The translations under genes and the position numbers were made by a program. From Amycolatopsis aidingensis (GTDB lineage Bacteria > Actinomycetota > Actinomycetes > Mycobacteriales > Pseudonocardiaceae), in assembly GCF_018885265.1 (NCBI RefSeq), contig NZ_CP076538.1:4624001-4688000 (forward strand): a stretch of 64,000 nt of DNA, written 5' to 3'. The notes beneath the pieces were generated by a model. That model searched no databases. It was not told where the DNA came from and saw only the letters and a list, made by a program, of their open reading frames with translations. This document shows, piece after piece, positions 48,310-63,635 of this stretch (positions are counted from its first letter, which is position 1; each line of letters begins with the position of its first letter).

Positions 48310-49128
48310 TCAGACACGGCCGACCTCCGCGGCGAGGTACCCGTCCGCCTCGCTGCCACAGTGGACGGTCAGGGTCTGCTGTGTATCCGCGGCAGGCAAT
48401 CGTCCGGCGGCGAGTGCGAGCCGTACCACCCCGCTGGCGCCGTACAACACGTCCAGCCCGTCGCTTTCGCCTGCGGGCGCATCGGTGTCGCGGACCGGCC
48501 CGAGCCAGGGCGCAGGAGAGTCCCGCCCGCCGAGCAGCACGCAGGCGGCACCCGCGCGCAGCCGCCCACCGGCAAGTCCGGTGGCCACCGGATCCTCCGG
48601 TTCCACCCCCACCACGAGCGCACGCCGGGCGCGGCCGGAGCGCAGCAGCAGCGTCGCCAGCCGGACCGCGTCCAGCCCGGCGGTGGCGCCGCTGCACACC
48701 GCGAGATTCGGCCCGGTGAGGCCGTACCAGATCGCGACCGTGCTGGCAATCACGTTGCTGGAGGCGTTTGGCGCGTCCAGCGGGCTGACCGCCTTGACCC
48801 CGCCCTCGCGAACGTCGTCCACGATGCCGCAGACCGTCTGGACGTTGCCGAGGTTGCAGGCCACCAGCACGGCGGTGCCCTCGGCCTGTGCCACCGGCTC
48901 CGCGGGGCGCACCGGGGGCAGCCCGAACATCCGGTGCACCGCGCACAGGGCCAGCAGGGTCGCCGGTTCCTTGCCGAGCAACCCCTTGCGGCCCAGTACC
49001 TTCCGCGCCTCCTGCGGCGGCTCGGCCGGGTGTGCGGGCAGTCCGGGAAGGTCGTCGGCGGACCAGCCGGGCAGGTGCACGGCGGCATCGAGCACGGCCA
49101 CGCCGGTGTGCTCGTCCCGCCCGGTCAC
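48310..49128 (-). CDS. Truncated ketosynthase-like protein (N-terminal thiolase half)
   Basis: 272 residues. It covers only the first half of a KS fold. It has AVCSGATAGLDA (about 165-176), which aligns with the nucleophile-elbow Cys region of ketosynthases, and VVGVEPEDPV after it. It lacks the HGTGT and GHTxG regions of the second half, so ordinary condensation chemistry is unlikely on its own. It may be a structural or priming partner of the neighbouring KS/CLF pair. The GTG start overlaps the CLF stop (GTGA). Similar short KS homologues occur with reducing type II PKS pairs, but I cannot name this one. Confidence 0.7.
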   Translation of the reverse strand: MTGRDEHTGVAVLDAAVHLPGWSADDLPGLPAHPAEPPQEARKVLGRKGLLGKEPATLLALCAVHRMFGLPPVRPAEPVAQAEGTAVLVACNLGNVQTVCGIVDDVREGGVKAVSPLDAPNASSNVIASTVAIWYGLTGPNLAVCSGATAGLDAVRLATLLLRSGRARRALVVGVEPEDPVATGLAGGRLRAGAACVLLGGRDSPAPWLGPVRDTDAPAGESDGLDVLYGASGVVRLALAAGRLPAADTQQTLTVHCGSEADGYLAAEVGRV

Positions 49129-50282
49129 GATCGCATCCCGGTCCGGACGAGCAGCACGCCCACGGAGCCGTCCGACGAACGCGAGCTGAGCAGGAACAGC
49201 TCCGACTGCGCGCCCGCGCGGTGCGCGGCGAGCACACAGGCCAGTTGCAGGCCGCCGAAGGCCGCCCCGGACTCGCCGACCGCATCGGCCACCGCGATCC
49301 GCGGCGCCGTGGAACCGACTACCTCGTCCAGCGCCCGCGACTCGGCGCCGTCCAGCGCGGGCATGCCGTTGCCACCGGTGCAGACCGTGCCCACCTGGTC
49401 CGGCCGCACCCGCGCGCGGTGCAGCGCGCGGTGCAGGCAGGCCGCGAACCCGGCCGTATACCGGGCGGGATCCTCACCCGGCGGGTCGAAACTGCCGACC
49501 TCGGCGGCAAGGATCTCCGCCAAGGGCTCGTCTCCGGCGGCGCGCACCGCGGCCGCGCTGCGCACGACGAACACCGCCGCGCCCTCGCCAGGGGGCAGGT
49601 CGCCGCCCTCGGCGGCCTGGATAGCGCGCACCGCCCAGGCGTGCTGCGGGCTGAACTCCTCCACCGTCCCGGCGAGCAGGGTGTCGGCGTAGCCGCAGCC
49701 GATCAGGTTACGGCCGTACCGCAGCACTTGGGCCATTGCGGTGGTGCCACCGGCAACGGTGGAGTTGGGGCCGTGCAGGCCGGTACGGATCGCGGCCTGC
49801 CCGGCCACCGAGTTCATCACCGCGTTCGGGAACAGCACGGGATTGACGTGGTAGGGCCGGTGTTCGGTATGGGTGGCCCTGCTGTAGTCACTGGTCGACT
49901 TCATACTGCCGTGCGTGGTGCCGAGGGTGATGCCGATCCGCGCCCGGTTGCCGTCATGCACGTCCAGGCCCGCGTCCGCCAGCGCGAGGGTGCAGGCGAG
50001 CAGGCCGAGCCCGGTGCCGCGGTCCAGAAAGGAGGTGCCCTTGCGACCAAGGTGCTCGCGCACACTGAACCCGGTGAGGGCGTGCCCTTCGGGTCCCGGC
50101 AGGTCGTCCTCGAACAGCTCGCCGGGTTCCGCAGGCGCCTGCCGGTGGCCAGCGAGCACCCCGGCCAGCGGTTCCGGCCCGATCCCTGCCCCGCCGACCA
50201 CCCCGAACCCGGTGATGGCCAGCGCGCCCGCAGGGACCTCGGTTCCGCCCGGGTGCGCGGCCTGCCGCGCCGCCGCGGTCAC
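49125..50282 (-). CDS. Chain-length-factor-like ketosynthase subunit (KS-beta)
   Basis: 385 residues with a full KS fold. At the active-site position it reads NSTVAGGTTAMAQ, so the Cys is replaced by Gly, as expected for a chain-length factor. It shares REHLGRKGTSFLDRGTG and NPVLFPNAVMNSVAGQAAIR with the CLF at 54653-55819. It is encoded directly after KS 50279-51487 with a GTGA overlap, so the two should form a KS-CLF heterodimer that elongates the polyene chain. Confidence 0.9.
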   Translation of the reverse strand: MTAAARQAAHPGGTEVPAGALAITGFGVVGGAGIGPEPLAGVLAGHRQAPAEPGELFEDDLPGPEGHALTGFSVREHLGRKGTSFLDRGTGLGLLACTLALADAGLDVHDGNRARIGITLGTTHGSMKSTSDYSRATHTEHRPYHVNPVLFPNAVMNSVAGQAAIRTGLHGPNSTVAGGTTAMAQVLRYGRNLIGCGYADTLLAGTVEEFSPQHAWAVRAIQAAEGGDLPPGEGAAVFVVRSAAAVRAAGDEPLAEILAAEVGSFDPPGEDPARYTAGFAACLHRALHRARVRPDQVGTVCTGGNGMPALDGAESRALDEVVGSTAPRIAVADAVGESGAAFGGLQLACVLAAHRAGAQSELFLLSSRSSDGSVGVLLVRTGMRS

Positions 50283-51487
50283 GACGGCCGTCCCAGGATC
50301 ACGATGGCGTTGTTCCCGCCGAAGGCGAACCCGTTGATCTGCGCGATGTCCACCCGCGCCTGGCGCGCGATGTTCGCCACCGGGTCCACCGGGGCCATCT
50401 CCGGATCGGCGGTGGAGAAGTTGATGGTCGGCGGCAGGAAGGAATGGGTGATGGCGAGTGCGGCGGCGATGGCGCCGTGCCCGCTCGCCGCACCCATGGT
50501 GTGTCCCAGCATCGACTTCACCGAACTGATTGGCGGCGGCTGCGCGCCGAACACGTCCCCGACGGCCCCGGCCTCGGTCAGGTCGTTGGTCTCGGTTCCG
50601 GTGCCGTGCGCGCAGATGTAGTCCACATCGGCCGGTTCGATCCCGGCATTGCGGTGGGCGAGGCGCATGCATTCGGCGACGCTGGCCCGTTCCGGCACCA
50701 CCATGTGGTGCGCGTCGCAGTTCATTCCGTAGCCGAGCACCTCGGCGTACACCCTGGCGCCCCGGGCCTCGGCGGACTCCCTGCTCTCCAGGAACAGGCC
50801 CGCGCCCCCTTCCGCGGTGATGATCCCGGAACGGTCCCGGTCGAACGGGGCGCACACCCGCTCGGCCAGCGCACCGAGCCGGTAGAAGCCCGCATGCGAC
50901 CAGCGCATCACCGAGTCGGCGCCGCCGACCACGGCGTAGTCCAGTTCCCCGGTACGGATCAGGTCGTAGCCGTAGCCCAGCGCGTAGTTGCTGGCCGAGC
51001 AGGCGTTGGACAGCGTGACCGCGTCCGCGGTGAGCTCGAGTTCCCGGTTCACCGCCAGGGAGAGGCGGGCCGCCGAGACCTGGCGGAACCACTCCGGTGG
51101 CACCCCGCCGAACCCGCCTGCGGCCAGCGACTCCTCGGTGACCCGTTCCAGCACCCCGGACTCGCCGGCGGTGGTGCCCATGCAGGACCCCGCGGCGGCC
51201 GTGGCAAGTTCCGCCTCGGAAATCCCGGCGTCGGCGACGGCCAGCCGCGCCGCGGCTGCGGCGAACAGGCTGGCCCGGCCCCATTCCTCGGCCTTCAGCC
51301 GGGTGAGGTAGAGACCGGGGTCGAAATCATGTACCTCACCGCCCATGACATAGGGGAACCCCTCGGTGTCGAAGCCGGCGATCGGTGATACGCCGCTACG
51401 CCCCGCCCGCAACGCATCCGCGTAAGCCGTGGAACCGATGCCGATACTCGACACCGGCCCCACGCCGGAAATGACGACCCGCCGCAT
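50279..51487 (-). CDS. Type II ketosynthase (KS-alpha)
   Basis: 402 residues. The catalytic Cys is in LSNACSASNYAL (about 167-178), the first His in CAHGTGTETND, and the Lys/His region in SSVKSMLGHTMGAASG. Decarboxylative Claisen condensation on ACP is expected, with the CLF encoded next. It is closely similar to the KS at 55812-57020. The start is ATG 51487, 20 bases after the ACP gene. It is part of the ACP-KS-CLF-KS' subset 48310-51767. Confidence 0.95.
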   Translation of the reverse strand: MRRVVISGVGPVSSIGIGSTAYADALRAGRSGVSPIAGFDTEGFPYVMGGEVHDFDPGLYLTRLKAEEWGRASLFAAAAARLAVADAGISEAELATAAAGSCMGTTAGESGVLERVTEESLAAGGFGGVPPEWFRQVSAARLSLAVNRELELTADAVTLSNACSASNYALGYGYDLIRTGELDYAVVGGADSVMRWSHAGFYRLGALAERVCAPFDRDRSGIITAEGGAGLFLESRESAEARGARVYAEVLGYGMNCDAHHMVVPERASVAECMRLAHRNAGIEPADVDYICAHGTGTETNDLTEAGAVGDVFGAQPPPISSVKSMLGHTMGAASGHGAIAAALAITHSFLPPTINFSTADPEMAPVDPVANIARQARVDIAQINGFAFGGNNAIVILGRPS

Positions 51488-51506
51488 CCGTTGCCCAAAG
51501 CCCCGC

Positions 51507-51767
51507 TCAGGCCTGCCAGCCTGCGTGCGCGGCGACCACGTCGTAGACCGAGACCACGTTCACCATCTTCGGCAGCTCGGACTGCGGGATGTCCACCTTG
51601 AAGCTCTTCTCCAGCCGCGCCAGGATCTCGACCGCACGCAGCGAGTCGGCGTCGTGGTCCTCGACGAAAAGGCTCTCGTCGGTCAGTTCGTCCGGCTCCA
51701 GTTCGAGGACCGTCGCGACGATGTCGCGAATTTCGTCGAGCTGCCCTCGTTTGGTGTCGACCGTCAC
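51507..51767 (-). CDS. Acyl carrier protein
   Basis: 86 residues. The phosphopantetheine Ser lies in HDADSLRAVEIL (about 39-50), within a four-helix ACP pattern (IRDIVATVLELEPDELTDES at the front). The DSL core is typical of type II PKS/FAS carriers. It starts with GTG at 51767 with AAGGGTGG upstream and is encoded immediately before a KS-CLF pair, so it probably carries the growing polyene chain. Confidence 0.93.
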   Translation of the reverse strand: MTVDTKRGQLDEIRDIVATVLELEPDELTDESLFVEDHDADSLRAVEILARLEKSFKVDIPQSELPKMVNVVSVYDVVAAHAGWQA

Positions 51768-51957
51768 GGTGAAACCACCCTTCTGATATCACGATAGAAA
51801 CGAGATAATTTTTCCCCAGGTGCCGGCGGGCGTTGTCGTCCCCGAACCCGGCATCGTTGTTCAGTAAACCAGTTCCACCGGCACGGGACCACGAAACACG
51901 AATTTTCGTATCGTCCTTGACAGCCACCGCGACGAACTGATTTTTCGCTACCTCACG
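51768..51957. promoter_or_regulatory. 190-base gap between KR and ACP genes, probable internal promoter region
   Basis: This is the longest non-coding gap inside the PKS block. It is distinctly AT-richer than its surroundings (TAATTTTT and AATTTTCG patches) and contains a small hairpin, ACGAAA-N7-TTTCGT (about 51893-51911). Since the ACP-KS-CLF genes follow, it could carry their own promoter. I cannot pick a convincing -10/-35 pair on the minus strand. Confidence 0.35.
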
Positions 51958-52698
51958 TCACAACGAGTATCCGCCGTCCACCTGGACCACCTGGCCGGTG
52001 ATGTAGCTTGCCTTGCCCGAGGCGAGGAACGACACCAGTTCGGCCACCTCGTCGGGGTTGCCGACCCGGCGCATCGGGATGGCCGACAGCGCCTTGTCCC
52101 GGACCTTGTCCGAGAGTCCGGTCGTCATGTCGGTCTCGATGAGCCCGGGGGCCACCACGTTGACCCGAATTCCGTACGGCGCCAGCTCCTTCGCCAGGGA
52201 CATACTCATTCCCTGAATTCCGGCCTTCGAGGCCGAGTAGTTCGTCTGTGTGGCGTTGCCGTAGACACCGGCGATGGACGATAGGTTGACGATGACGCCT
52301 TCCTTGCGTTTCATGAAATCGAACACCACACTGCGGCACACGTTGAAGGTGCCGTTCAGGTTGGTGTCCACAACCCTGTGCCAGTCCTCGTTCTGCATGA
52401 GCACCAGTGGGCCGTCCCGGACGATCCCGGCCGAGTTCACCACGACCCGCACCGGCCCGAGTTCCTCCGCCGCCCTGCCGACGAACTTCTCGACCGCGGC
52501 GAAGTCGGACACGTCCACCTTCGCCGGCAGGGCGCGCCTGCCGTGCTCGGTGATCATCTTTTCGGTCAGCGCTGCGGCCTCACCGTCGCTGTGGTAGCAG
52601 AACGCGATGTCGTAGCCGTCGGCGGCCAGCCGGGCGGCCACCGCGCGCCCGATCCCGCGGGATCCGCCGGTCACGATCGCGCAATGTTCTTGAGTCAC
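51958..52698 (-). CDS. 3-oxoacyl-ACP reductase (FabG-type SDR, KR)
   Basis: 246 residues, a classical short-chain dehydrogenase. The cofactor motif is [13 protein letters not shown] (about 9-21), NSAG is near 89, the catalytic Ser-Tyr-Lys is in [23 protein letters not shown] (about 140-162), and the C-terminus ends [14 protein letters not shown]. It reduces the beta-keto group after each condensation, with NADPH expected. It starts with GTG 52698 and follows the small peptide gene. Confidence 0.93.
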
Positions 52699-52738
52699 GA
52701 AACCGCTCCCTCACAGGTCGCTGGTGCATGAACCCGGG

Positions 52739-52879
52739 TCAGCCGCAGCCGCCCGCCGTATCGGTGTCGGCGGCACCGACCCGCTCGACGATCTCCCTCG
52801 GAATCCCGTCCAGCTGACCGTCCGCCCAGACCTGCTCGTCCGCGGGCTCGCCGCCAGTGCTCGAATCCGCTGGTCCCAT
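52739..52879 (-). CDS. 46-residue peptide ending in GGCG, unknown function
   Basis: An open frame of 46 codons beginning MGPADSSTGGEPADEQ and ending ADTDTAGGCG. A strong Shine-Dalgarno (GGAGG, six bases before the ATG) supports translation, and it fits exactly between the isomerase gene (33 bases upstream) and the KR gene (40 bases downstream). It is acidic, has one Trp and a single Cys at the penultimate position, and no signal peptide. I do not recognise it. It could be a small regulatory or scaffolding protein, or a modified peptide, but nothing here proves a role. Confidence 0.55.
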   Translation of the reverse strand: MGPADSSTGGEPADEQVWADGQLDGIPREIVERVGAADTDTAGGCG

Positions 52880-52912
52880 CGATTCCTCCGTGTCTGTCCG
52901 CAAAACGCGCCG

Positions 52913-53539
52913 TCACTGTGCTTTCGCCGTCATCCGCTCCAGTTCCTCGATCACGAAGTCGATCCGGTCGAGGCCCCAGAACCGTTGCCGCCCGACCTTG
53001 AAGTAGGGCACCCCGAACACGTCGTCGTGGTAGACATCCAGCAGGGCCCGCACGCCGAGCTCACGCATGTCCGGATCCTGCGGCGCGGACACCAGCAGGT
53101 CACCGTCCAGCCCGGCCGCATCGCAGGTCCGGCGCAGCGTGCCGGTATCGCAGATGTCCTCGCCGCGTTCCCACCTTGCCGCCATCACCGCGGCGTAGTA
53201 CTCGCGCTGCACCCCGAGCTCGCGCGCCTTGAACCAGGCCAGGTGCGGCAGTTCCCACCACGGGTCGACATCGACCGGCCAGGTCATCCGGTAGCCGAAA
53301 TGACCGGCCAGCCGCTTGGTGTCGGCCAGGATGTAGAGGTGTTTCGCCTTGCTCATGTCCACGTAGTGGAAGTCCCCGCCGCGCGCCACCAGCTCGGCCA
53401 TCGTGCTGGGATCCGGCTCGAAGAACGGGATGTAGTCGAACCGCTCCAGCAGTTCCGGGACACGTTCCTCCAGCCTTCGCAACGCCATCCAGCTGAACGG
53501 ACTGCGTAGCGAGAAGTACATCCTGGGTGGTTTCCTCAT
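52913..53539 (-). CDS. DsbA-family isomerase-like protein (HCCA-isomerase fold)
   Basis: 208 residues with a thioredoxin/DsbA fold related to 2-hydroxychromene-2-carboxylate isomerases. The N-terminal strand YFSLRSPFSWMAL has no CxxC (Ser in its place), and FGVPYFKVGRQRFWGLDRIDFV forms the cis-Pro/C-terminal part. Such proteins are characteristic of cinnamoyl-lipid clusters, where they are thought to isomerise a polyene double bond before ring closure. It starts at ATG 53539 overlapping the stop of the KS gene (ATGA). Confidence 0.88.
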   Translation of the reverse strand: MRKPPRMYFSLRSPFSWMALRRLEERVPELLERFDYIPFFEPDPSTMAELVARGGDFHYVDMSKAKHLYILADTKRLAGHFGYRMTWPVDVDPWWELPHLAWFKARELGVQREYYAAVMAARWERGEDICDTGTLRRTCDAAGLDGDLLVSAPQDPDMRELGVRALLDVYHDDVFGVPYFKVGRQRFWGLDRIDFVIEELERMTAKAQ

Positions 53540-54675
53540 CCGTCTCCCCTGCCTGGCCGCTGTGGCGCCTGGACAATCGTCACCGCGTTCACCCCGCCGA
53601 AGCCGAAGGCGTTCACCTGCGCCACCTCGGTCACCTGGGTCACCGGCCGCTCCGGATGCACCAGCCGCAACGACCGGGCCTCCTCGATCGGCGTGCGCAG
53701 GCCGACCACGGGTGGCACGGCCTTCTCCCGGATGGTCTCCAGCGCGACCAGCGTGCTCATCAGCGCGGCGCTGCCCGAGGTGTGCCCGATGGCGCCCTTG
53801 ATCCCGGTGACCGTGGGCCCGTCCGCGCCGAACACCTCCGCCAGCGCCGCGGCCTCGGTCGGGTCGTTCAACGCGGTGCCGGTGCCGTGCGCGAGCACCA
53901 GGTCGATCCGCTCGGGCCCGAGGCCCGCGCGGGCGTAGGCGTCCCGCATCGCGGCCACGATCCCGTTCTGGTCCGGCGCGGTCTCGTGCTTGGCGTCGCA
54001 GGTCAGGCCGACCCCGCGGACGAGGCCGTAGGCCCGCTCCGTTGCGCCGGCCTGCAGCACCACGGCCACGGCACCCTCGCCGAGCTGCGCCCCGCCGCGC
54101 GCGGTGTCGAACGGGCGCACCATATCCGCGGGCCGCTCACCGACCCTGCCGATGATGGCGAGCATGCTCTCGGTCATGGCGTCGCAGCCCGCGGCCACCA
54201 CCGCGTCGGCCTCGCCGAGTTCGAGCATGTCCATGGCCAGCGCCAGGGCGTAGCCGGAGGCGGCGCAGGCACCCGCCAGAGTGTGCACCTCACGCACCCC
54301 GGGTACGGCGGCGCGCACGGCCCGCCGGAAGTGCAGCTGGTTACCGGTCACCTGGGTGCCGTCGAGATGCCCGTGCTCCACCGTGCGCAGCTCCCGCAAC
54401 CCGGTACCGACGACCACGTTCACCCTGCTGGTGCCAGGGTCCACCCCGGCGTCCCGCAGTGCCGCGGAGACGCAGTGCGTCAGCCATCCCGTAGCCTGCG
54501 CCGGACCCTCCGCGCTGCTGGTGCCGATGTGGTACCCGGCCAGCACGTTGAGCTTGTCCGGCAGGCCGTACCGCAGCGGGCCCACCCCGGTGCGGCCATC
54601 CGCCAGCGCGGCGAAGGTGGACTCCAGGTCGCCGAGACAGGTGAGCATCGCCCTACCCGTGATCGCCGCCGGCAC
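53536..54675 (-). CDS. Ketosynthase (third KS of the minus-strand block)
   Basis: 379 residues. The Cys is in LAGACAASGYAL (about 125-136), the His in LAHGTGTALND and the second His in KGAIGHTSGSAAL, so the full catalytic triad is present. It is shorter at the N-terminus than the other KS proteins and more diverged. It starts with GTG 54675, preceded by AGGGGGTGG, overlapping the end of the CLF gene by 23 bases. It may act on a particular step such as priming or one elongation; this is inference. Confidence 0.88.
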   Translation of the reverse strand: MPAAITGRAMLTCLGDLESTFAALADGRTGVGPLRYGLPDKLNVLAGYHIGTSSAEGPAQATGWLTHCVSAALRDAGVDPGTSRVNVVVGTGLRELRTVEHGHLDGTQVTGNQLHFRRAVRAAVPGVREVHTLAGACAASGYALALAMDMLELGEADAVVAAGCDAMTESMLAIIGRVGERPADMVRPFDTARGGAQLGEGAVAVVLQAGATERAYGLVRGVGLTCDAKHETAPDQNGIVAAMRDAYARAGLGPERIDLVLAHGTGTALNDPTEAAALAEVFGADGPTVTGIKGAIGHTSGSAALMSTLVALETIREKAVPPVVGLRTPIEEARSLRLVHPERPVTQVTEVAQVNAFGFGGVNAVTIVQAPQRPGRGDG

Positions 54676-55819
54676 GGGACCACCCCCTGACCACGGCCGC
54701 CGCGACCGAACCGTCGGCCGAGCGCGTACTGAGCACGGACAACTCGCCGTCTCGCGCCGGTTCCGCGCGATGCCGGGCCAGCAGCGCGGCCAGCGGGAAG
54801 GCACCGGATGCGCTGCCTGCCACGCCGGTGACCTGCGTGGTACCCAACCGGGCCGCGCCGGCGCCGAGCACCTGCCGCACCGCGGTCTCCTCGGCATCGT
54901 CCAGCCAGGGCGTCCCGTCGGTGCCCAGTGCCACCGTCCGCACCTGCGCCGCGGAGGCCCCTGCCTGGTCCAGCGCCGCGCGCAGGCATTCGCGTAGCCG
55001 GTCCGTGGTGCCCGCGGGCCCCGGCGATGCCGCGGATCCGGAACAGGTCACCGACAGCACGCAGGCATCCGGGCGCCCACCGCGCGCCCGGACCGCCGCC
55101 GCGTCCTCGACCAGGAACACCGCGGCGCCCTCCCCTGCGGGCAGGGTCCCGCCCGCGCGGCGCTGCGCGTGCTGCACCGACCACGCGGCCTGCGGGCTGA
55201 ACTCCTCCACCGCACCGGCCAGCATCACCTCGGCCCTTCCGGTGGCCAGCGCGACCCCGGTGTAGCGCAGGGCCTGCAGCAGGGCCAGCGGCCCGCCCGC
55301 GATCGTCGCGTTCAGCCCGCGTAGCCCGAACCGGATCGCGGCCTGCCCGGCGATGCCGTTCATCACGGCGTTCGGGAATAGCACCGGGTTGACATGGTAC
55401 GGCCGCTCCTCGGTGAGGGTGTCCCGGCTGTAGTCACTTGTCGACTTGAGGCTGCCCGCGGTGGTACCGAGCACGACACCGGTGCGGGCCCGGTCCGGCT
55501 CCGCCATCCCGGCGTCGGCCAGCGCGTCCCGGCAGGCCAGCAGCCCGAAGGCGGTGCCACGGTCCAGAAACGAGGTTCCCTTGCGGCCGAGGTGCTCGGC
55601 GGCGTGGAAATCGACCAGCACATGCGCGTCCGGCCGGGGCAGCGGTTCGGTGAACATCCCGCTGACGTCCACCGGTTCCGGCGGCCGCGTCAGCGCGTCC
55701 ACGAGTGCATCCGGCCCGATCCCGAGTCCGGAAAGGACACCGAATCCGGTGATCGCCAGTTCTTTCCCGGCGAGCTGCTTCCCGGATGTTTCCGGTTCCG
55801 CCAAGAGCTCTTCAGTCAT
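54653..55819 (-). CDS. Chain-length-factor-like ketosynthase subunit
   Basis: 388 residues. The active-site region reads NATIAGGPLALLQ, with Gly instead of Cys, and VALGTDGTPW replaces HGTGT, so it is non-catalytic. It is closely related to the CLF at 49125-50282 (same HLGRKGTSFLDRGTAFG and LFPNAVMN segments). It pairs with KS 55812-57020, whose stop overlaps its ATG by eight bases. An alternative start 12 bases upstream would add four residues. Confidence 0.9.
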   Translation of the reverse strand: MTEELLAEPETSGKQLAGKELAITGFGVLSGLGIGPDALVDALTRPPEPVDVSGMFTEPLPRPDAHVLVDFHAAEHLGRKGTSFLDRGTAFGLLACRDALADAGMAEPDRARTGVVLGTTAGSLKSTSDYSRDTLTEERPYHVNPVLFPNAVMNGIAGQAAIRFGLRGLNATIAGGPLALLQALRYTGVALATGRAEVMLAGAVEEFSPQAAWSVQHAQRRAGGTLPAGEGAAVFLVEDAAAVRARGGRPDACVLSVTCSGSAASPGPAGTTDRLRECLRAALDQAGASAAQVRTVALGTDGTPWLDDAEETAVRQVLGAGAARLGTTQVTGVAGSASGAFPLAALLARHRAEPARDGELSVLSTRSADGSVAAAVVRGWSRAGGDHG

Positions 55820-57020
55820 CACACCGTCCAAGGACGACGATGGCGTTGTTGCCGCCGAAGGCGAACCCGTTCACCATGGCGATGCCGACCTCCGCGGGCC
55901 TTGCCGTGTTCGGCACGGGGTCGATCCCGGGTAGTTCCGGGTCCGGCGTGCCGAAGTTGATCGTCGGCGGCAGGAAGGACTCGGCGATGCCCAGCGCGGC
56001 GGCGATGGCGGCCATCCCGCTCGCGGCGCCCATGGTGTGGCCCAGCATGGATTTCGTGGAGCTGATCGGGGGCGGCGGATCGCCGAACACCTCCCGCGCC
56101 GCGGTGAACTCGACCACGTCGTTGGTCGGGGTGCCGGTACCGTGCGCGCCGATGTAGTCGACCTCGTCCGGGCGGACACCGGCGTCGGCCAGCGCCAGCC
56201 GCATGCAGTCGGCGATACTGGCCGCGTTCGGCGCCACCATGTGGTAGGCGTCGCAGTTCAGCCCCGCGCCCAGTACCTCGGCGTAGATCCGGGCGCCGCG
56301 CCGCCGGGCCGAGTCGAGGGACTCCAGGAACAGGGCTGCGCCGCCTTCCGCCGTGAGGATCCCGGCCCGGTCCCGGTCGAAGGGCGCGCAGGCGTGCTCG
56401 GCCACGGCGCCGAGCTTGTAGAACCCGGCGTGCAGCCACTGCTGCACCGAGTCGGCCCCGCCGGCGACCATGTAGTCGGCCTCGCCGGTGCGGATCAGGT
56501 CGAGAGAGTGGGCCAGGGCGTAGTTCCCCGCGGCGCAGGCGGTGGACAGTGTGAGCAGGTCGCCGGTGAGGCCCAGCTCGGTGCCCGCGGCCAGTGAGAT
56601 CCGGCCCGCGTCGATCCGGCCCATTCGCTCCGGTGACACCGCGTCATAACCTTCTGCCAGCGCCTGCCTGGTCACCGACTCCAGCACCTGCGACTCGCCT
56701 GCCGTGGTGCCCAGCACCGCGCCCGCCCTGGCACCGGTCAGCAGCTCCTCGTCGATACCGGCGTCCTCCACCGCGAGCCGGGCCGCGGCCGCGGCGAACA
56801 GGCTGGTACGCCCCCAGTCGTCCACCTCGATCCGGCGGACGATCTTCTCCGGCTGGAAGTCGCGAACCTCACCGCCCATCCGGTGCGGGAACCCGCTCGC
56901 GTCGAAGCTGGTGATCTCGGAGATCCCGCTCGCCCCGGCACGCAACGCCAGCGCGTACTCCACCGCGCCGACGCCGATACTGGACACCGGGCCGACACCG
57001 GTGACGACCACCCGACGCAT
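55812..57020 (-). CDS. Type II ketosynthase (KS-alpha)
   Basis: 402 residues. The Cys is in LSTACAAGNYAL, with GAHGTGTPTND and STKSMLGHTMGAASG as the other catalytic regions. It is highly similar to the KS at 50279-51487, so the two KS-CLF pairs arose by duplication. I chose ATG 57020; ATG 57047 (nine more residues, with AAGG upstream) is possible. A terminator-like hairpin lies about 40 bases upstream. Confidence 0.95.
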   Translation of the reverse strand: MRRVVVTGVGPVSSIGVGAVEYALALRAGASGISEITSFDASGFPHRMGGEVRDFQPEKIVRRIEVDDWGRTSLFAAAAARLAVEDAGIDEELLTGARAGAVLGTTAGESQVLESVTRQALAEGYDAVSPERMGRIDAGRISLAAGTELGLTGDLLTLSTACAAGNYALAHSLDLIRTGEADYMVAGGADSVQQWLHAGFYKLGAVAEHACAPFDRDRAGILTAEGGAALFLESLDSARRRGARIYAEVLGAGLNCDAYHMVAPNAASIADCMRLALADAGVRPDEVDYIGAHGTGTPTNDVVEFTAAREVFGDPPPPISSTKSMLGHTMGAASGMAAIAAALGIAESFLPPTINFGTPDPELPGIDPVPNTARPAEVGIAMVNGFAFGGNNAIVVLGRCDD

Positions 57021-57097: not shown

Positions 57098-57550
57098 TCA
57101 GAAACTTGAAGCGACGGTCTGGCCGGTAACGTCCTCCGCGGGCCTGCTTGCCGCGATCAACGTTTCGATCGTTGCCACACAACGGTTTCCGGACCAGGTC
57201 TCGCCGGTGAAGAAGGCATTCGGGCCCACCCGTTGCTCCAGCCGTACCACCTGGTGCAGCAGTTCCCCCGGCTGCACCGCGGAGGTGAACCTGCACTCGC
57301 GCACGGCGGCGAGCATCAGCACCCCCTCCCCGATTCCCTCCCCCACCGCGCTGGCCAGCCAGAGCAGGGCCGCGCTCTGGCCGAAGGACTCCAGCATCAG
57401 CGAGCGCGGGTAACAGTAGGCATCGGGGCCGGGGTCCTCCGGCAGGCCGGCATAGCAGGGCTCGCCGCCCGTCACCGCCTTGGTGGTGACGATCTCCCGG
57501 CCGGGGGTGACCTGCTGGACCCGGTCCACCAGCAGCATCGGATGCCGCAC
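57098..57550 (-). CDS. FabZ/FabA-like hotdog dehydratase domain C (start unclear, possible frameshift fusion)
   Basis: The conserved part begins RHPMLLVDRVQQVTPG and continues EPCYAGLPED, YPRSLMLESFGQSAALLWL, then a full hotdog to the end. The catalytic Glu region (MLESFGQ) is present, but the GHFPG His is replaced by the EPCY segment, as in the hotdog at 58050. Similarity begins upstream of any good start codon (DHARIRRQLPVRHP). The only nearby codons are GTG 57550 and ATG 57538, without ribosome-binding sites. It may therefore be the second half of a two-domain protein with 57472-58053, separated by a frame break near 57590-57620. Confidence 0.65.
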   Translation of the reverse strand: MRHPMLLVDRVQQVTPGREIVTTKAVTGGEPCYAGLPEDPGPDAYCYPRSLMLESFGQSAALLWLASAVGEGIGEGVLMLAAVRECRFTSAVQPGELLHQVVRLEQRVGPNAFFTGETWSGNRCVATIETLIAASRPAEDVTGQTVASSF

Positions 57551-58053
57551 CGGGAGCTGCCGCCGGATCCGCGCGTGGTCCTGGCATGGGATGCCGCCGG
57601 GGCAGGGGGCGCCGCCGGGGGGTCGAGCCCCGGTTCCCCGCCGGTCCGCCCGGCGGTCAGTTTCAGCTCGGCCACCGCGACACCGTCCTGCCGGACGCAG
57701 GCGGCCCGCACCCGCCAGGCCGTCGCGCCCTCCGGGCGCAGCACGAGGTCCAGCCGGATCTCGTCCCCGCCACGCATCGGCGCGCGTAACCGTATCGACT
57801 GGACGGCCAGCAGCTCGCACCGCCCGTACGGGACCCGATCCGCGGCGACCACCTGGCGCACCGCTTCCAGCAGGAACACCGCGGGCAACATGGTCAGCCC
57901 GGGGAAATGCCCTGCCATGTACGGGTCGCGCACGTCCACCGTCTTGTACGCGACCAGTGCGCGCTCCGTGCCGGTATCCCCGGTCACGGCGAACCGGTCG
58001 GCCGCCCGCAGTGGGGCGGCGAACGGCGGCCGGTCCAGCTCGACGACCGTCAT
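57472..58053 (-). CDS. FabZ-like hotdog dehydratase domain B
   Basis: 193 residues as an open frame; the last ~45 after LKLTAGRTGG are linker-like or out of frame. It contains PYMAGHFPGLTMLPAVFLLEAVRQV, with both the catalytic His (GHFPG) and Glu (LLEAVRQ) of FabZ. It should dehydrate 3-hydroxyacyl-ACP. The ATG overlaps the stop of hotdog A (ATGA). The true protein may continue into hotdog C, which lies in another frame directly downstream. Confidence 0.75.
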   Translation of the reverse strand: MTVVELDRPPFAAPLRAADRFAVTGDTGTERALVAYKTVDVRDPYMAGHFPGLTMLPAVFLLEAVRQVVAADRVPYGRCELLAVQSIRLRAPMRGGDEIRLDLVLRPEGATAWRVRAACVRQDGVAVAELKLTAGRTGGEPGLDPPAAPPAPAASHARTTRGSGGSSRCGIRCCWWTGSSRSPPAGRSSPPRR

Positions 58054-58520
58054 GGCGAACCGAGCACTTCGGACGGACGGACCGCGGCGAGCACGCTCTC
58101 CACGGTCAGCACGATCCTGCCGCTCGCGGTCGCCTGCCCTTCGAACACCCAGGAGTCGCCAAGCGACTTGCCGATCCGCACCTCGTGCCGCAGCACCTCG
58201 CCAGGCCGGACCGTGGAGTGCAGGTCGATATTGGTGGCGGCGCCGAGCACGGCCACCTCGCCCGCGGCATGCGCCCGGGGCCGTTCTCGCATGGCCAGCA
58301 CCAGCGCCGCCTGGCACCAGGACTCCACCACCAGCGCGGAGGGGTAGCCGTAGCCCTCGTCCGGGGTGTCGTCCGGCAATGCCCGGAAGCAGGGTTCGTT
58401 GCAGGTCACCGCCTTGACCGCGACGATATGCCTGCCGGGTGCCAGGTCGAGGACGTCGTCGAGCAGCAGCAGCGGGTAGCGATGCGGGATCAGTTCCTTG
58501 ATGGCGGCGAGCCCGGTCAC
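58050..58520 (-). CDS. FabZ-like hotdog dehydratase A (His-lacking)
   Basis: 156 residues. LIPHRYPLLLLDDVLDLAPG matches the FabZ N-terminal strand, and VVESWCQAALVLAM retains the Glu region. The GHFPG loop is replaced by NEPCFRALPDD, so the usual catalytic His is missing. It probably pairs with hotdog B, which has both residues, as in heterodimeric dehydratases such as HadAB/HadBC. I chose GTG 58520, which overlaps the upstream stop as GTGA; GTG 58529 is possible. Confidence 0.85.
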   Translation of the reverse strand: MTGLAAIKELIPHRYPLLLLDDVLDLAPGRHIVAVKAVTCNEPCFRALPDDTPDEGYGYPSALVVESWCQAALVLAMRERPRAHAAGEVAVLGAATNIDLHSTVRPGEVLRHEVRIGKSLGDSWVFEGQATASGRIVLTVESVLAAVRPSEVLGSP

Positions 58521-58912
58521 ACGAACCACACCTTGTCGTACCGGGGCCAGGTCCTTGCCAGCTGGTTGGTGTCGGCGCAGGCCACCCCGGGCAGCAGGTC
58601 GGCGCCGGTGAACCCGAGCCCGCGCAGGTCCGGTTCGTCCGCTGTGACCGTCATTCCCGCGCCGACCAGGTCACGGACGACACCCCGGTAGTCCGGCAGG
58701 GTGTCCAGCCGCACCGCCCCGAGATCGAGTTCGGTGCTGTACTCCTGCTCCTGCACGGCCAGGGTGACGGCGAGCCCGCGCAGCACGATGTCCACCGCGC
58801 CGAGTTGCTCCCGCATGTCGAGGAAGCCGTACAGCGGGTCGAAGAACTGCGACTCCACGGCTCCCCGGTAGGTCCGGTCGATGATGCCGAGCACGCGATG
58901 TGGCACCGTCAC
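58517..58912 (-). CDS. DsrE-family-like small protein 1
   Basis: 131 residues beginning VTVPHRVLGIIDRTYRGAVESQ, with LGAVDIVLRGLAVTLAVQE and a C-terminal GVACADTNQLARTWPRYDKVWFV. This alpha/beta pattern fits the DsrE/DsrF/TusC family of small sulfur-relay proteins. It has a single Cys near the end. The GTG start overlaps the stop of the next DsrE-like gene (GTGA), and its own stop overlaps hotdog A. The role in this pathway is unknown. Confidence 0.55.
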   Translation of the reverse strand: MTVPHRVLGIIDRTYRGAVESQFFDPLYGFLDMREQLGAVDIVLRGLAVTLAVQEQEYSTELDLGAVRLDTLPDYRGVVRDLVGAGMTVTADEPDLRGLGFTGADLLPGVACADTNQLARTWPRYDKVWFV

Positions 58913-59316
58913 GCACCTCCGATGAAGATCGTCTTCGCCGAGGTGGCCATGGTGGCCATCAGGCGGCCCGGCGACCGCATCAGCACCTCGGCGATGTGGT
59001 TGGTGGCACCGCGTTCGGCGCTGCAGGTGGTGCATCCGATCCAGCCGAACCGGCCCTCGTTCCCGGCGATCAGCTGCCGCACGATGGCGGCGCTGGAGGG
59101 ATAGGCCACCTCCGGGGCGCGAGTGTTCTTCGGTTTGGTCTCGCCGTGCGTGTCCTGGGTGAGCATGTTCGCGTAACCGCAGGCCCATACCCGCACCGCG
59201 CCACCCCTGCGCAGCATCGCCTCGGACAGCCGGAGCACGGTGGTGAAGGTGTCGTTGTAGTGCGGCGGGGCCGTCATGATGAGCAGCAGGTCCCAGCGGC
59301 GGGTCGGCAGGGCCAT
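58909..59316 (-). CDS. DsrE-family-like small protein 2 (CxxC)
   Basis: 135 residues. WDLLLIMTAPPHYNDTFTTVLRLSEAMLRRGG is typical of the first beta-alpha unit of DsrE/TusD proteins. VWACGYANML follows, then WIGCTTCSAERGATNH with a CxxC pair that could carry a persulfide or bind metal. It is the middle member of three tightly overlapping DsrE-like genes (TGATG with the next upstream gene, GTGA with the downstream one). Confidence 0.6.
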   Translation of the reverse strand: MALPTRRWDLLLIMTAPPHYNDTFTTVLRLSEAMLRRGGAVRVWACGYANMLTQDTHGETKPKNTRAPEVAYPSSAAIVRQLIAGNEGRFGWIGCTTCSAERGATNHIAEVLMRSPGRLMATMATSAKTIFIGGA

Positions 59317-59651
59317 CAGTGCCACACCGCCTGACCGTCCGTGCTGAGCAGCTCCTCCGCCACGGCGTCCATCTCGACCAGCACGGTCCCTGCGGGCGGT
59401 GCCGTCGCGGCCAGTGCCCGCTGGCGCAGCGAGAAGCCGTCCACCCACACCTGGCCACCGCCGTCGAGGACGCCGCGCACCGCGGTGCTCGCCTCCGGCA
59501 CCGCGGCGAGCACCCCATCCTGCACCAGCAGCAGGACCACCTCGTGCCCGGCCGCGGCCAGCTCCCCGGCGTCGCGGACGAACCGGCTCGCGTTCGGGCC
59601 GCTCCACGGGCCCTGGCTCTCGATCATCAGGTAGCGCGATCCCGCGCTCAT
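59316..59651 (-). CDS. DsrE-family-like small protein 3 (TusB/DsrH-like, no Cys)
   Basis: 111 residues. RYLMIESQGPWSGPNASRFVRDAGELAAAGHEVVLLLVQDGVLAA resembles DsrE/DsrH/TusB proteins. VWVDGFSLRQRAL and a final GQAVWH complete the fold. It contains no cysteine, so it would be a structural or non-sulfur subunit. Its start overlaps the stop of the hotdog D gene (ATGA). Confidence 0.55.
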   Translation of the reverse strand: MSAGSRYLMIESQGPWSGPNASRFVRDAGELAAAGHEVVLLLVQDGVLAAVPEASTAVRGVLDGGGQVWVDGFSLRQRALAATAPPAGTVLVEMDAVAEELLSTDGQAVWH

Positions 59652-60079
59652 CCCACGGCCACCAGGGTTTCCCTGCCACCGTCCACGATGGACTTCCCGG
59701 TTTCCGGCTCCAGGTCGATGAAGCGCAGCCGGAAGGTGGCCACCTTGCCATTGCCCGCGCCACAGGTGGCGCGCACCTCGCGCTGCCCGTCGCCCGGCGT
59801 GATCGCACAGTCCACCGTCACGGTGTCGCCGGGTGGCACCACGGAGTTGAACCGGGCGGACCGCACCCCTGCCAGCCGGGTCCGCACCCCTGCCGCGTGC
59901 GCGTGCCCGATGACCAGGTGCTGCACCAGGTCCAGCAGGTACATCCCCGGCAGCAGCTCGAATCCGGGATAGTGGCCGCGGAAGACCTCCTCGGCGGGGT
60001 TCACCACCACCTCGGCCAGCAGGCCGTCTGCCCGCTCGGACAGCACGGAAACCCCTGGCAGGAGCGGGGCCGCGCTCAC
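59648..60079 (-). CDS. FabZ-like hotdog protein D
   Basis: 143 residues. It has RGHYPGFELLPGMYLLDLVQHLVIG, which keeps the catalytic His (GHYPG) but has Asp where FabZ has Glu. It may be a dehydratase, an isomerase or a partner subunit for a Glu-bearing hotdog such as A or C. The GTG start at 60079 overlaps the ACP stop (GTGA), so it is co-translated with the ACP. Confidence 0.82.
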   Translation of the reverse strand: MSAAPLLPGVSVLSERADGLLAEVVVNPAEEVFRGHYPGFELLPGMYLLDLVQHLVIGHAHAAGVRTRLAGVRSARFNSVVPPGDTVTVDCAITPGDGQREVRATCGAGNGKVATFRLRFIDLEPETGKSIVDGGRETLVAVG

Positions 60080-60327
60080 CGCTGCGCCGATTTCGTGTTG
60101 AGCAGGTGGCAGATGTCCGGAAAGGTGCGTACCTGGACCATCTCCTTCTCGGCGATCTGCACCTGGTACTTCCGCTGCAGGGTCACGGCCAGTTCCAGGG
60201 CGATCAGCGAGTCCACCTCGAGGTCCTCGACGAACCGCACCTCGTCGGTCAGCGACTCCGGAAGGACGTCCACCACATCGGCGACCAGGGTGCGAAGTTC
60301 GTCCACATCGACTGCCTGAGCTGACAC
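60076..60327 (-). CDS. Acyl carrier protein (second)
   Basis: 83 residues with the phosphopantetheine Ser in DLEVDSLIALELA (about 35-47). The first helix is DELRTLVADVVDVLPESLTDEV. It starts with GTG 60327, preceded by AAGGAG, which is itself adjacent to one arm of an inverted repeat (60337-60346). It is the first gene of the tightly overlapping set 57098-60327, so it probably carries the intermediates handled by the hotdog enzymes. Confidence 0.92.
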   Translation of the reverse strand: MSAQAVDVDELRTLVADVVDVLPESLTDEVRFVEDLEVDSLIALELAVTLQRKYQVQIAEKEMVQVRTFPDICHLLNTKSAQR

Positions 60328-61471: not shown

Positions 61472-61540
61472 GGGGCGCACCCTACCGGCAGCCAACCGGG
61501 ATCCAGTTCCCTCTCAGGAGCGAGTTCCTGCTACCAGCGG

Positions 61541-61656: not shown

Positions 61657-62751
61657 GTGTCGGCTCCCGTCATCACCGGCCTCGGCGCGGTGACCTGCCT
61701 TGGCCATTCGGTGTCCGAGCTGTGGGCGGCGCTGGCCGGTGCGGTGCCGCCGGACCCTTCCTACACCGCGGATTCCCGCTACGGCTCCGAAGGTGGCGGC
61801 CGGGCGGGCGCACTGGCATCGGACGCGGTCGGCCAGGCCGTCGCCGATGCCCGACTGACCACATCGGATCTTCGCGGCGCAGGCCTGGTCCTCGGCACCA
61901 CCCTCGGTGACATCGACCGGTTCGAGGACGAGCACGCCGCGCCGCCGGAGGCAGGACCGTACCGGCTCGGCGAGCGGATCGCGGCGGAGTTCGGCATCGG
62001 CGGGCCGAACCACAGCGTGAGTACCGCGTGTTCCTCGGGTGCGCTGGCCGTGGGCACCGCGGCCGACCTGATCGCAGCCGGGGCGGCGGAGATCGTGATC
62101 GTATGCGGCAGCGACTGCCATTCCACCGTGTCCAGGGGCATGCTCGAGCGGCTCGACCTGCTCGATCCCGCGGCCTGCCGCCCGTTCGACGCCGACCGCG
62201 GCGGGATGGTGCCCGGTGAGGGGGCAGCCGCCGTGGTGCTGGAATCCGCGGAGTCCGCCCGCGGCAGGCAGGCCCGGCGCTACGCCACTGTGACGGGTAA
62301 CGAATGGAGCGCCGACGCCCACCACCCGACCGCGCCGGAGCCGGAAGGCGACCAGTTCCGGCGGGCCATGGCACAGGCGGTGCGCGGGTCCGGCGGCGAA
62401 CCGGGGGCGGTGCTACCGCACCGGGCCGGAATCCCGATGAACGACGTGGTGGAGACCGCGGCCGTGGCCGGCCTGCTGGGCCCGGCGGCGGCCCGGATCC
62501 CCGCCTACGGGATCAAGGCGATGACCGGGCACACCGCTGGTGCCGCCGGGGTACTGGCCTGTGTGGTCGGCGCGCTGATCCTGGGCGCGGGTGTGGTCCC
62601 GCCGAACGCGAACGTCGGCACCCCGGATCCGGACTGCGAGCTGTTCGTGCCCACCGCGGGGCCAACGGAACTGCCCGCCCCGCGGGTGCTCGTCACGGCC
62701 ACCGGTTTCGGCGGCAGCAATGTGGCGCTCGTGCTGGGGGCCGCCGGATGA
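61657..62751 (+). CDS. Ketosynthase, plus-strand pair member 1
   Basis: 364 residues. The Cys is in SVSTACSSGALAVG (about 127-140). The usual HGTGT is altered to PHRAGIPMND, keeping the His, and GIKAMTGHTAGAAG keeps the second His, so it can be active. It is shorter than a standard KS. I chose GTG 61657, which has AGGAGG just upstream; an ATG two bases earlier is out of frame. The stop overlaps the ATG of the next gene (ATGA). It may prime or finish the polyketide, or form a separate KS-CLF pair. Confidence 0.88.
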   Translation: MSAPVITGLGAVTCLGHSVSELWAALAGAVPPDPSYTADSRYGSEGGGRAGALASDAVGQAVADARLTTSDLRGAGLVLGTTLGDIDRFEDEHAAPPEAGPYRLGERIAAEFGIGGPNHSVSTACSSGALAVGTAADLIAAGAAEIVIVCGSDCHSTVSRGMLERLDLLDPAACRPFDADRGGMVPGEGAAAVVLESAESARGRQARRYATVTGNEWSADAHHPTAPEPEGDQFRRAMAQAVRGSGGEPGAVLPHRAGIPMNDVVETAAVAGLLGPAAARIPAYGIKAMTGHTAGAAGVLACVVGALILGAGVVPPNANVGTPDPDCELFVPTAGPTELPAPRVLVTATGFGGSNVALVLGAAG

Positions 62752-63635
62752 CGGTGCCGATCGGCGGATTCGGGGCGCTGTCCTCGCCCCCGCGTCCGGA
62801 CGGCTGGTTCGACCCCGCCGCCCACCTCGGCAGGCGCGGCTGGAAGTACCTGACCCCGGCCACCAGGTTCCTGCTCGCGGCGGCGAACCTGGCGCTGGGC
62901 AGGCAGCAGGGGGATCCGGCCGCGTCCGGCCAGGACTCCACCGGGCTGGGCGTGTTCACCGGTACCCACCAGTGCATCACCGGGCTGCACGAGAAGCTGT
63001 ACCGCACGATCCGGCAGGAGGGGGTTGGCGAGCTCAGCCCGGTCGAGCTCCCCGGCTTCGCCGCGAACATCCCGGCCACCCAGCTGGCGATCACGCTCGG
63101 CGCGCGGGCCTGCGCGGTGACCCTGACCAATCCGGTGACCGGCGGCCTGGAGGGAGTCCTGCTCGGGGCCCAGGCGATCCGGCGTGGCCGGGCGGCCAGG
63201 GTACTGGCCACGGCGGCCGAGCAGGCCGCCCCCGGTGCCCCCGGCGAGGGCGCCGGGGTGCTGGTGCTCGGCGGCGCGGTGGACCGGCCGCAGGGCACGG
63301 TGCTCGGCGGGGTCTCCCGCTTCCTGCCGGATCCCGGCGGCCCGGCGCTGCCCGCGGACCTGGGTGTGGAGCTCGCCGCCTCCCTCGCCGGGGTGGGCCC
63401 GGTGCGGGTGGTGGCCTGCGGGCCGGCACGGACGGCGCCCCTCGCCGACGCGCTCGGCACCGAACTGGCCGGATCCGGCGTCCCCATCGCGGGCACGGAC
63501 TACACCGAAGCCCGGCATGGCACGGTCAGCCCGCTGCTGACCATGGGTGCCCTGCTGGAGCGGCCGGGCGCCGCGGTGGTGCTGGCCGCCTCCGGCCGCG
63601 GCCACCTGTGTGCGCTGGCCCTGCGCTCCCACTAG
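62748..63635 (+). CDS. Ketosynthase-like/chain-length-factor-like protein lacking the Cys
   Basis: 295 residues. HLGRRGWKYLTPATRFLLAAANLAL and PGFAANIPATQLAITLGARACAVTLTNPVTGGLEG match the first half of KS/CLF proteins, with TNPVTGG in place of the nucleophile elbow. The second half is short. It starts at ATG 62748 overlapping the KS stop and is presumably its inactive partner. Its end overlaps the convergent LysR gene by four bases. Confidence 0.78.
   Translation: MTVPIGGFGALSSPPRPDGWFDPAAHLGRRGWKYLTPATRFLLAAANLALGRQQGDPAASGQDSTGLGVFTGTHQCITGLHEKLYRTIRQEGVGELSPVELPGFAANIPATQLAITLGARACAVTLTNPVTGGLEGVLLGAQAIRRGRAARVLATAAEQAAPGAPGEGAGVLVLGGAVDRPQGTVLGGVSRFLPDPGGPALPADLGVELAASLAGVGPVRVVACGPARTAPLADALGTELAGSGVPIAGTDYTEARHGTVSPLLTMGALLERPGAAVVLAASGRGHLCALALRSH

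Follow-up and report, generated by a model that had tools for sequence, protein, structure and literature searches.

Three small overlapping genes in a type II polyketide synthase (PKS) operon of Amycolatopsis aidingensis, here named P1, P2 and P3, are best seen as a DsrEFH/TusBCD-type assembly by their fold, three-gene make-up and active-site cysteine, below the curated thresholds of that family and without its partner set. They lie in a 64-kb stretch of genomic DNA that we analysed as a whole (hereafter the window), and searches in other genomes revealed that the trio is a recurring, optional cassette of related PKS clusters. DsrE-fold heterotrimers are sulfur-transfer proteins of tRNA modification and of bacteria that oxidise sulfur. 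That such a trio recurs in PKS clusters suggests that polyketide assembly involves thiol or sulfur chemistry. If true, a PKS-tied DsrE trio would represent either a sulfur route new to natural products or a thiol catalyst of a new kind that works on acyl chains.

Gene organization and fold of the trio

P1, P2 and P3 are situated between two dehydratase-like hotdog genes, hotdog A and hotdog D, and the coordinates and content of these three small overlapping genes are as a preliminary description of the window had claimed (Table 1). The start of P1 sits within the stop of hotdog A (ATGA, a 4-base overlap), one base is common to the P2 ATG and the P1 stop, the P2 stop is overlapped by the P3 GTG (GTGA), and the P3 stop is overlapped by a GTG of hotdog D (GTGA). 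Starts and stops overlap by 1–4 bases all along the row from hotdog A through P1, P2 and P3 to hotdog D, which suggests translational coupling of all five genes. P3 has 131 residues when counted from its GTG start and 129 from the next start. Homologs beyond the window's own were found at 30–68% identity for P1, 45–81% for P2 and 48–78% for P3, and we therefore regard all three as real genes. Chance open reading frames (ORFs) were considered for the trio and rejected, since homologs, order and cysteines are all conserved. The gene calls were home-made and missed some genes, hotdog C in the window among them.

Table 1 Features of the trio and of the surrounding type II PKS cluster, in window coordinates.
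Feature	Position	Strand	Remarks
P1	59316..59651	(-)	111 aa; putative DsrH/TusB-like subunit, from profiles
P2	58909..59316	(-)	135 aa; DsrE/TusD-like subunit with CxxCxxxRG motif
P3	58517..58912	(-)	131 aa; third DsrE-fold subunit
Hotdog A, dehydratase-like	59648..60046	(-)	start not fixed, ORF runs further; directly upstream of P1
Hotdog D, dehydratase-like	58050..58520	(-)	directly downstream of P3; FabA-like domain, E 2.1e-10
Hotdog C and hotdog B	57098..58053	(-)	borders not fixed; downstream of hotdog D
ACP2, acyl carrier protein of the trio's operon	60076..60327	(-)	from ORF and homology
DsbA-family protein, taken as PKS isomerase	52913..53539	(-)	DSBA, E 1.9e-16
KS/CLF-type genes, ACP1 and ketoreductase of the type II PKS	48310..57011	(-)	from domains and homology
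Further KS/CLF-like pair	61657..63635	(+)	opposite strand; homologs in many trio loci

For P1, profile matches to DsrH (2hy5_C, E 4.1e-4) and TusB (2d1p_C, E 0.012) support membership of the DsrE family and a probable DsrH/TusB-like identity. As a single sequence, P1 matched Pfam DsrE at E 0.0082, with 16.8 bits below the cut-off of 22.7; 6 of 10 other P1 homologs carried a precomputed PF02635 match, and 1 of the 10 bore a DsrF/TusC name from its source. For P2 and P3, a DsrE fold is supported by structure models. In Foldseek the P2 model was nearest to the DsrE chain (2hy5_A, E 3.8e-6), with 2hy5_B at 8.9e-4, and the P3 model was nearest to YchN. The preliminary description had named placement outside the DsrE fold as the outcome that would speak against it; single-chain prediction placed P2 and P3 within that fold.

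Sequence matches of these two proteins were weak. The window's own P2 and P3 gave no Pfam DsrE match, and at E<=1 such a match was obtained for 14 of 19 members of the P2 family (best 7.4e-5) and 3 of 16 of the P3 family (best 0.04). The P2 profile had YchN as its sole match among PDB sequences (E 1.8). When wide profiles were compared by hhalign with single E. coli proteins, P1 reached 83.8% with YchN and 55.7% with TusB, and P2 reached 43.6% with YchN and 29.6% with TusD, against 0.1–0.9% for five unrelated E. coli proteins; P3 stayed at 0.3–1.0% with four Tus/YchN proteins, like unrelated E. coli controls. The NCBIfam cut-offs for TusB, TusC and TusD were not reached: P1 scored 14.0 bits against 49.2 for TusB and 12.2 against 94.15 for TusC, and neither P2 nor P3 matched any of the three models. 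P3 may stand in the place of DsrF/TusC, by exclusion only. Taken together, the likeness to DsrE/DsrF/DsrH (TusBCD) that had been claimed from the first is borne out by the P2 and P3 models, by the CxxCxxxRG motif and by the profiles, whereas the proposed profile search against the DsrE family agreed with it in part, being significant for P1 but weak for the other two, and under the curated cut-offs for the proteins of the window.

Conserved cysteines were found in P2 alone. C46, C95 and C98, together with W44, G47 and W92, are present in 43/43 sequences (the window and 42 further loci), and R102 and G103 in 42/43; the cysteines are still invariant at the many loci where P2 shares 34–47% identity with that of the window. 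The best cysteine column covers 16 of 42 sequences in P1 and 9 of 43 in P3, that is, neither protein has a conserved cysteine. The earlier remark that only the middle gene has a CxxC is therefore right for the conserved motif, and beyond the CxxC, P2 has a third invariant cysteine, C46. In the profile alignments, CTTCSAERG of P2 stands opposite CKTCTDGRG of YchN, and C95 stands opposite the cysteine of E. coli TusD in NICVAAALRRG, residue 78, which we take to be the active cysteine of TusD. The active-site position of TusD/DsrE is thus conserved in P2 as C95 (43/43). P1 has a conserved C-terminal V-W-H (V 42/42, W 41/42, H 42/42), and P3 ends in Y-x-x-V-W-F in most sequences. A second, diverged copy of the trio was observed in a second type II PKS cluster of the window's genome (L044, C1:5009980 region), the P2 of which retains the CxxC without the RG.

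The trio resembles DsrEFH (2hy5) and TusBCD (2d1p) in its three DsrE-fold subunits encoded together, in a P2 that is nearest to the DsrE chain with the active cysteine kept, in a P1 whose profile matches DsrH/TusB, and in having no conserved cysteine in P1 and P3, as E. coli TusB also has none. However, its order of a TusB-like, a TusD-like and a third subunit differs from tusD-tusC-tusB, and the extra C98 and C46, the location in a PKS cluster and the want of a regular TusA or TusE/DsrC companion set it apart. Among YchN and DsrE-family structures (1jx7, 1l1s, 2pd2), it is YchN with which the P2 CxxC region aligns and to which the P3 model is nearest, but YchN is a single E. coli gene with only the two cysteines of its CxxC, whereas the trio is a three-gene cassette.

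The PKS setting and the recurrence of the trio

Pfam matches were obtained for eight proteins of the cluster, and the remaining ones were assigned by ORF and homology. KS domains were detected in 48310-49128 and 50279-51487 and an ACP domain in 51507-51767; the rest of 48310..57011 was assigned by gene call and homology, including by homology a ketoreductase-like SDR. Hotdog A has a FabA-like domain at E 2.6e-4, with 21.0 bits against the Pfam cut-off of 23, and for hotdog C/B such domains were found at E 1.3e-5 in ORF 57472-58317 and 7.4e-10 in ORF 57098-57820. Homologs of ACP2 adjoin the trio in most fetched loci, and two are annotated as acyl carrier protein. Very large ORFs at 18730-46378 match non-ribosomal peptide synthetases (NRPS) by homology, and ORF 38750-46378 matches, over its first 1100 residues, annotated non-ribosomal peptide synthetase genes of three other loci (L156-L158). 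The gene set of the cinnamoyl-lipid type is thus present, with KS, KR, DH, ACP and isomerase genes clustered with NRPS, the KR and the NRPS by homology only.

Passages of two papers assign ketosynthases, ACPs, hotdogs, a DsbA-family protein and NRPS as a set to cinnamoyl-containing peptides, and the isomerase role of such a DsbA-family protein is likewise taken from passages on its kind (PMC6510318; PMC9381841). The trio loci share KS/CLF pairs, ACPs, KR, dehydratases and isomerase with the cinnamoyl-lipid highly reducing type II PKS clusters sky, kcn, gla and ysf. The polyene PKS setting that had been supposed for the window therefore stands as a type II PKS but not as a plain polyene cluster, since NRPS-like ORFs and the cinnamoyl-peptide gene set are present. 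Two neighbouring ORFs may be mentioned here. Window 46380-48134 encodes a protein with alpha/beta-hydrolase and 4HBT_2 matches that looks like two adjacent genes in many related loci, and window 60461-61495 holds an ORF of 336-344 aa, apparently membrane-bound (by eye) and without a Pfam match, relatives of which adjoin the KS/CLF pair in several trio loci.

A profile search with P2 matched 9 of 297 genomes in the window's family, counting the window's own, which gave two matches. In Streptomyces, the genus of the Streptomyces griseus strain that holds L001, the search gave 38 hits in 31 of 392 genomes. Besides the window, 42 loci were fetched, comprising 32 of the 38 Streptomyces-set hits, nine other family hits and L002, with a stretch of at most 20 kb per fetched genome as against 64 kb for the window. 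P1, P2 and P3 were all present in the same order in 41 of these 42 loci; at the exception, L065, P2 and P3 lie at a contig end and P1 was not seen. A search for the same trio in other such clusters, as the preliminary description had advised, was thus successful. Three placements were observed: between hotdog A and hotdog D in the window, between ACP2 and hotdog C/B in nine loci (L001, L002, L045, L053-L058), and ahead of a CLF-type gene in most others.

The tie to the PKS is seen in the isomerase, relatives of which (E<=1e-20) occur in 80 of the 392 Streptomyces genomes overall and in 31/31 of those with a P2 match (hypergeometric P 1.6e-24, not corrected for kinship). An isomerase hit is found no more than 50 kb away from 30 of the 38 trio hits. 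Of the other eight, six are on contigs where the isomerase gave no match, and the remaining two share a contig with an isomerase hit at a great distance. Pairwise distances among trio proteins follow those of the isomerase and the ketoreductase (Mantel r 0.79-0.87, 28-30 loci) and fit those of the ketosynthases more weakly (0.34-0.62), with r of 0.50-0.88 among the six PKS proteins compared. At L063 the trio is found between KS/CLF pairs and the nearest isomerase hit is 0.69 Mb away. In two mutually similar loci (L070, L074) its neighbours are a giant NRPS and, by eye, ABC-transporter-like genes, and the fetched flanks held no clear genes of this PKS set, with KS/KR-like hits of 27-34% in L166 only.

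On the other side of the comparison, 49 of the 80 isomerase genomes had no P2 match among the ten best candidates scored per genome, and the core PKS can therefore do without the trio. We hand-picked 40 trio-less loci from 65 isomerase hits with no trio hit within 50 kb, and none of the P1, P2 and P3 profiles matched within the fetched stretches of at most 20 kb; L140 has the same gene order minus the three trio genes. Among the 95 isomerase hits in the 392 genomes, 30 have a trio hit within 50 kb, and clusters with the trio and the remaining ones without it offer a natural experiment on what it contributes. It had been stated that such a trio is not a usual part of polyene biosynthesis; this is correct in that it is not in every such cluster, but at the frequencies given above it is a recurring optional part. 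A literature search by title found no link of DsrE proteins with such PKS clusters. The term DsrE is absent from the main text of PMC6510318, PMC13311259, PMC9321520 and PMC9381841, and the word sulfur from the text of PMC9230751 and PMC11446937.

The gla cluster of S. globisporus C-1027 bears on the product. According to passages of PMC9381841, it yields globisporamic acid (C20H30O2) and two shorter acids, none of them containing sulfur, and comprises the pairs GlaE-GlaQ, F-G and J-K, the ACPs D and R, the dehydratases S and T, the ketoreductase U and the isomerase V; the names GlaL to GlaP do not appear in the text of that paper. Locus L071 has the order KS, KS, KS-like, hydrolase, 4HBT, KS, CLF, SDR and hydrolase, followed by P1, P2, P3, CLF, ACP, two hotdogs, KR and isomerase. 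This order fits the 18 letters E to V of gla with the trio at N, O and P, going by letters and not by sequence. In the same way, going by names, the sky numbering fits the trio-less order, with Sky17 a KS, Sky26 a KR and Sky27 an isomerase in passages of PMC6510318. If gla holds the trio, the trio therefore need not leave sulfur in the product; the gla acids described may not be the sole gla products. The gene L071:7658-8452 and its relatives, located in clusters with the gla order, encode an SDR that belongs to the enoyl-reductase/ketoreductase family and is a candidate for the missing enoyl reductase remarked on in PMC9381841.

A sister trio and possible sulfur partners

Across the phylum, the P1 profile matched 15 of 296 genomes, that of the window among them, and longer stretches were fetched around 11 matches in other genomes. 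At 10 of these 11 loci, from four families (L187-L196; tblastn with the genes of L189, L189 itself included), an HTH/TusA protein is followed by three genes, N1-N2-N3; the eleventh, L197, gave no tblastn hit with the L189 genes. CysH follows in 4 of the 10 operons and DUF4395 with thioredoxin in 8, some stretches ending early. At L189:7389-11111, Pfam identified a TusA domain, CysH, DUF4395 and thioredoxin, with N3 as DsrE over the cut-off. In hhalign the pairs, by probability, were N1-P1 98.6, N2-P2 97.3 and N3-P3 98.0, with weaker cross-matches such as N3-P1 at 96.5. The two trios are thus alike in order and in one-to-one best profile matches; they differ in that N2 has a CxxC in 0 of 10 sequences, with zero cysteines in the last 125 residues in 7 of 10, and in that N1-N2-N3 has sulfur-metabolism neighbours and no PKS was seen beside it. 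The PKS trio thus has a sister trio in a sulfur-metabolism context, and it is the PKS version to which the three invariant cysteines belong. A GNAT gene was also seen near the sister trio. The TusA domain of L189 seems by eye to be without the usual CPxP cysteine. Some matches of the phylum search, L181-L183, are single YchN-like genes with CxxC and not trios.

We compared the 43 trio loci, window included, with the 40 trio-less ones over about 20 kb per locus, most families being judged without a Pfam scan. By eye, no sulfur-related family was recognised as enriched with the trio, nor any thioredoxin-like partner beside it in PKS clusters. The top enriched family besides the trio appears alpha/beta-hydrolase-like (14/43 vs 0/40; Pfam on one member). 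A cysteine-synthase-like family (by eye; the family of L131_4) is rarer with the trio, at 1/43 as against 14/40. TusA and DsrC were searched for in 23 of the 41 trio genomes. TusA exceeded its cut-off in 14 of the 23, all of the Streptomyces set; the nine trio genomes of the window's family had none over the cut-off and one weak match, and the window's genome had no TusA match. DsrC exceeded its cut-off in 1 of the 23, the window's own genome (L159, C1:1606461 region), at 3 Mb from the window, and the other 22 gave no DsrC match. By these counts, the trio is not regularly accompanied by a TusA-TusBCD-TusE chain. Near this DsrC we observed, by eye, an FAD oxidoreductase-type ORF and a DsrE2-like ORF. 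A housekeeping Tus system was also considered and is unlikely, since a search of the window's genome gave no match to PF02635 at E<=0.001, although this search also missed the trio itself and the genome has the DsrE2-like ORF just mentioned.

Possible roles of the trio

We tentatively prefer the reading of a DsrEFH/TusBCD-like complex in which a thiol or persulfide on P2 C95 acts on the PKS chain or enzymes, with a sulfur-free product. P1, P2 and P3 would form a heteromeric complex like DsrEFH/TusBCD, with two copies of each subunit expected, and this complex, kin to the actinobacterial DsrE-type trio, would serve highly reducing type II PKS clusters as an optional accessory. C95, with C98 and C46, would carry the thiol or persulfide, the target of which would be either the ACP-bound chain or the PKS itself, and the sulfur of this chemistry would not be kept in the final product. 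A bolder form of this reading is possible, and we hold it more loosely: the trio would be the first TusBCD/DsrEFH-type complex dedicated to polyketide biosynthesis, its active cysteines either regained or alone kept, and would work as a protein thiol/persulfide catalyst on ACP-bound polyenes, for example through reversible addition by which double bonds are shifted, reduced or isomerised, again with a sulfur-free product.

A true sulfur relay, in which P2 would receive sulfane sulfur from a desulfurase and hand it to a carrier or enzyme for insertion into the acyl chain or peptide, giving a thio-compound, seems unlikely. It would fit the DsrE/TusD fold with its kept catalytic cysteine position, the DsrC homolog in the window's genome, and the sister trio, which stands after a TusA-domain protein and in part before CysH and thioredoxin. 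However, among the families compared by eye over about 20 kb per locus, no sulfur-using one was recognised as enriched with the trio, which speaks against a simple sulfur-insertion pathway. The relay is further disfavoured by the patchy occurrence of TusA (0/9 over the cut-off in the window's family) and of DsrC and, if gla holds the trio, by the sulfur-free gla acids described.

The P2 cysteines could instead reduce, persulfidate or protect PKS thiols, namely the ketosynthase cysteine or the ACP arm, or guard them from the reactive polyene. We consider such a redox or repair factor rather unlikely: no thioredoxin-like partner was recognised beside the trio, and a helper has no obvious need for three paralogous subunits in one order, even though a CxxC with a third invariant cysteine, a cassette that is optional yet kept, as expected for a helper, and the DUF4395, thioredoxin and GNAT genes near the sister trio would all suit it.

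Sister P2 proteins without CxxC retain the trio organisation, so that a complex can act without this motif, and the three P2 cysteines together with the invariant C-terminal histidine of P1 could form a putative metal site. On this ground the trio might serve the PKS as a scaffold or ligand-binding complex unrelated to sulfur, with metal-binding or structural cysteines. The invariance of the cysteine set in the PKS version argues against a pure scaffold, as does C95 at the TusD/YchN active-site position, and we regard this alternative as improbable. Finally, a hitch-hiking remnant without pathway function, to which the many similar isomerase genes with no trio found nearby and the diverged second copy (L044) might point, is very improbable, given strict cysteine conservation, a single order and overlapping starts in at least two actinobacterial families.
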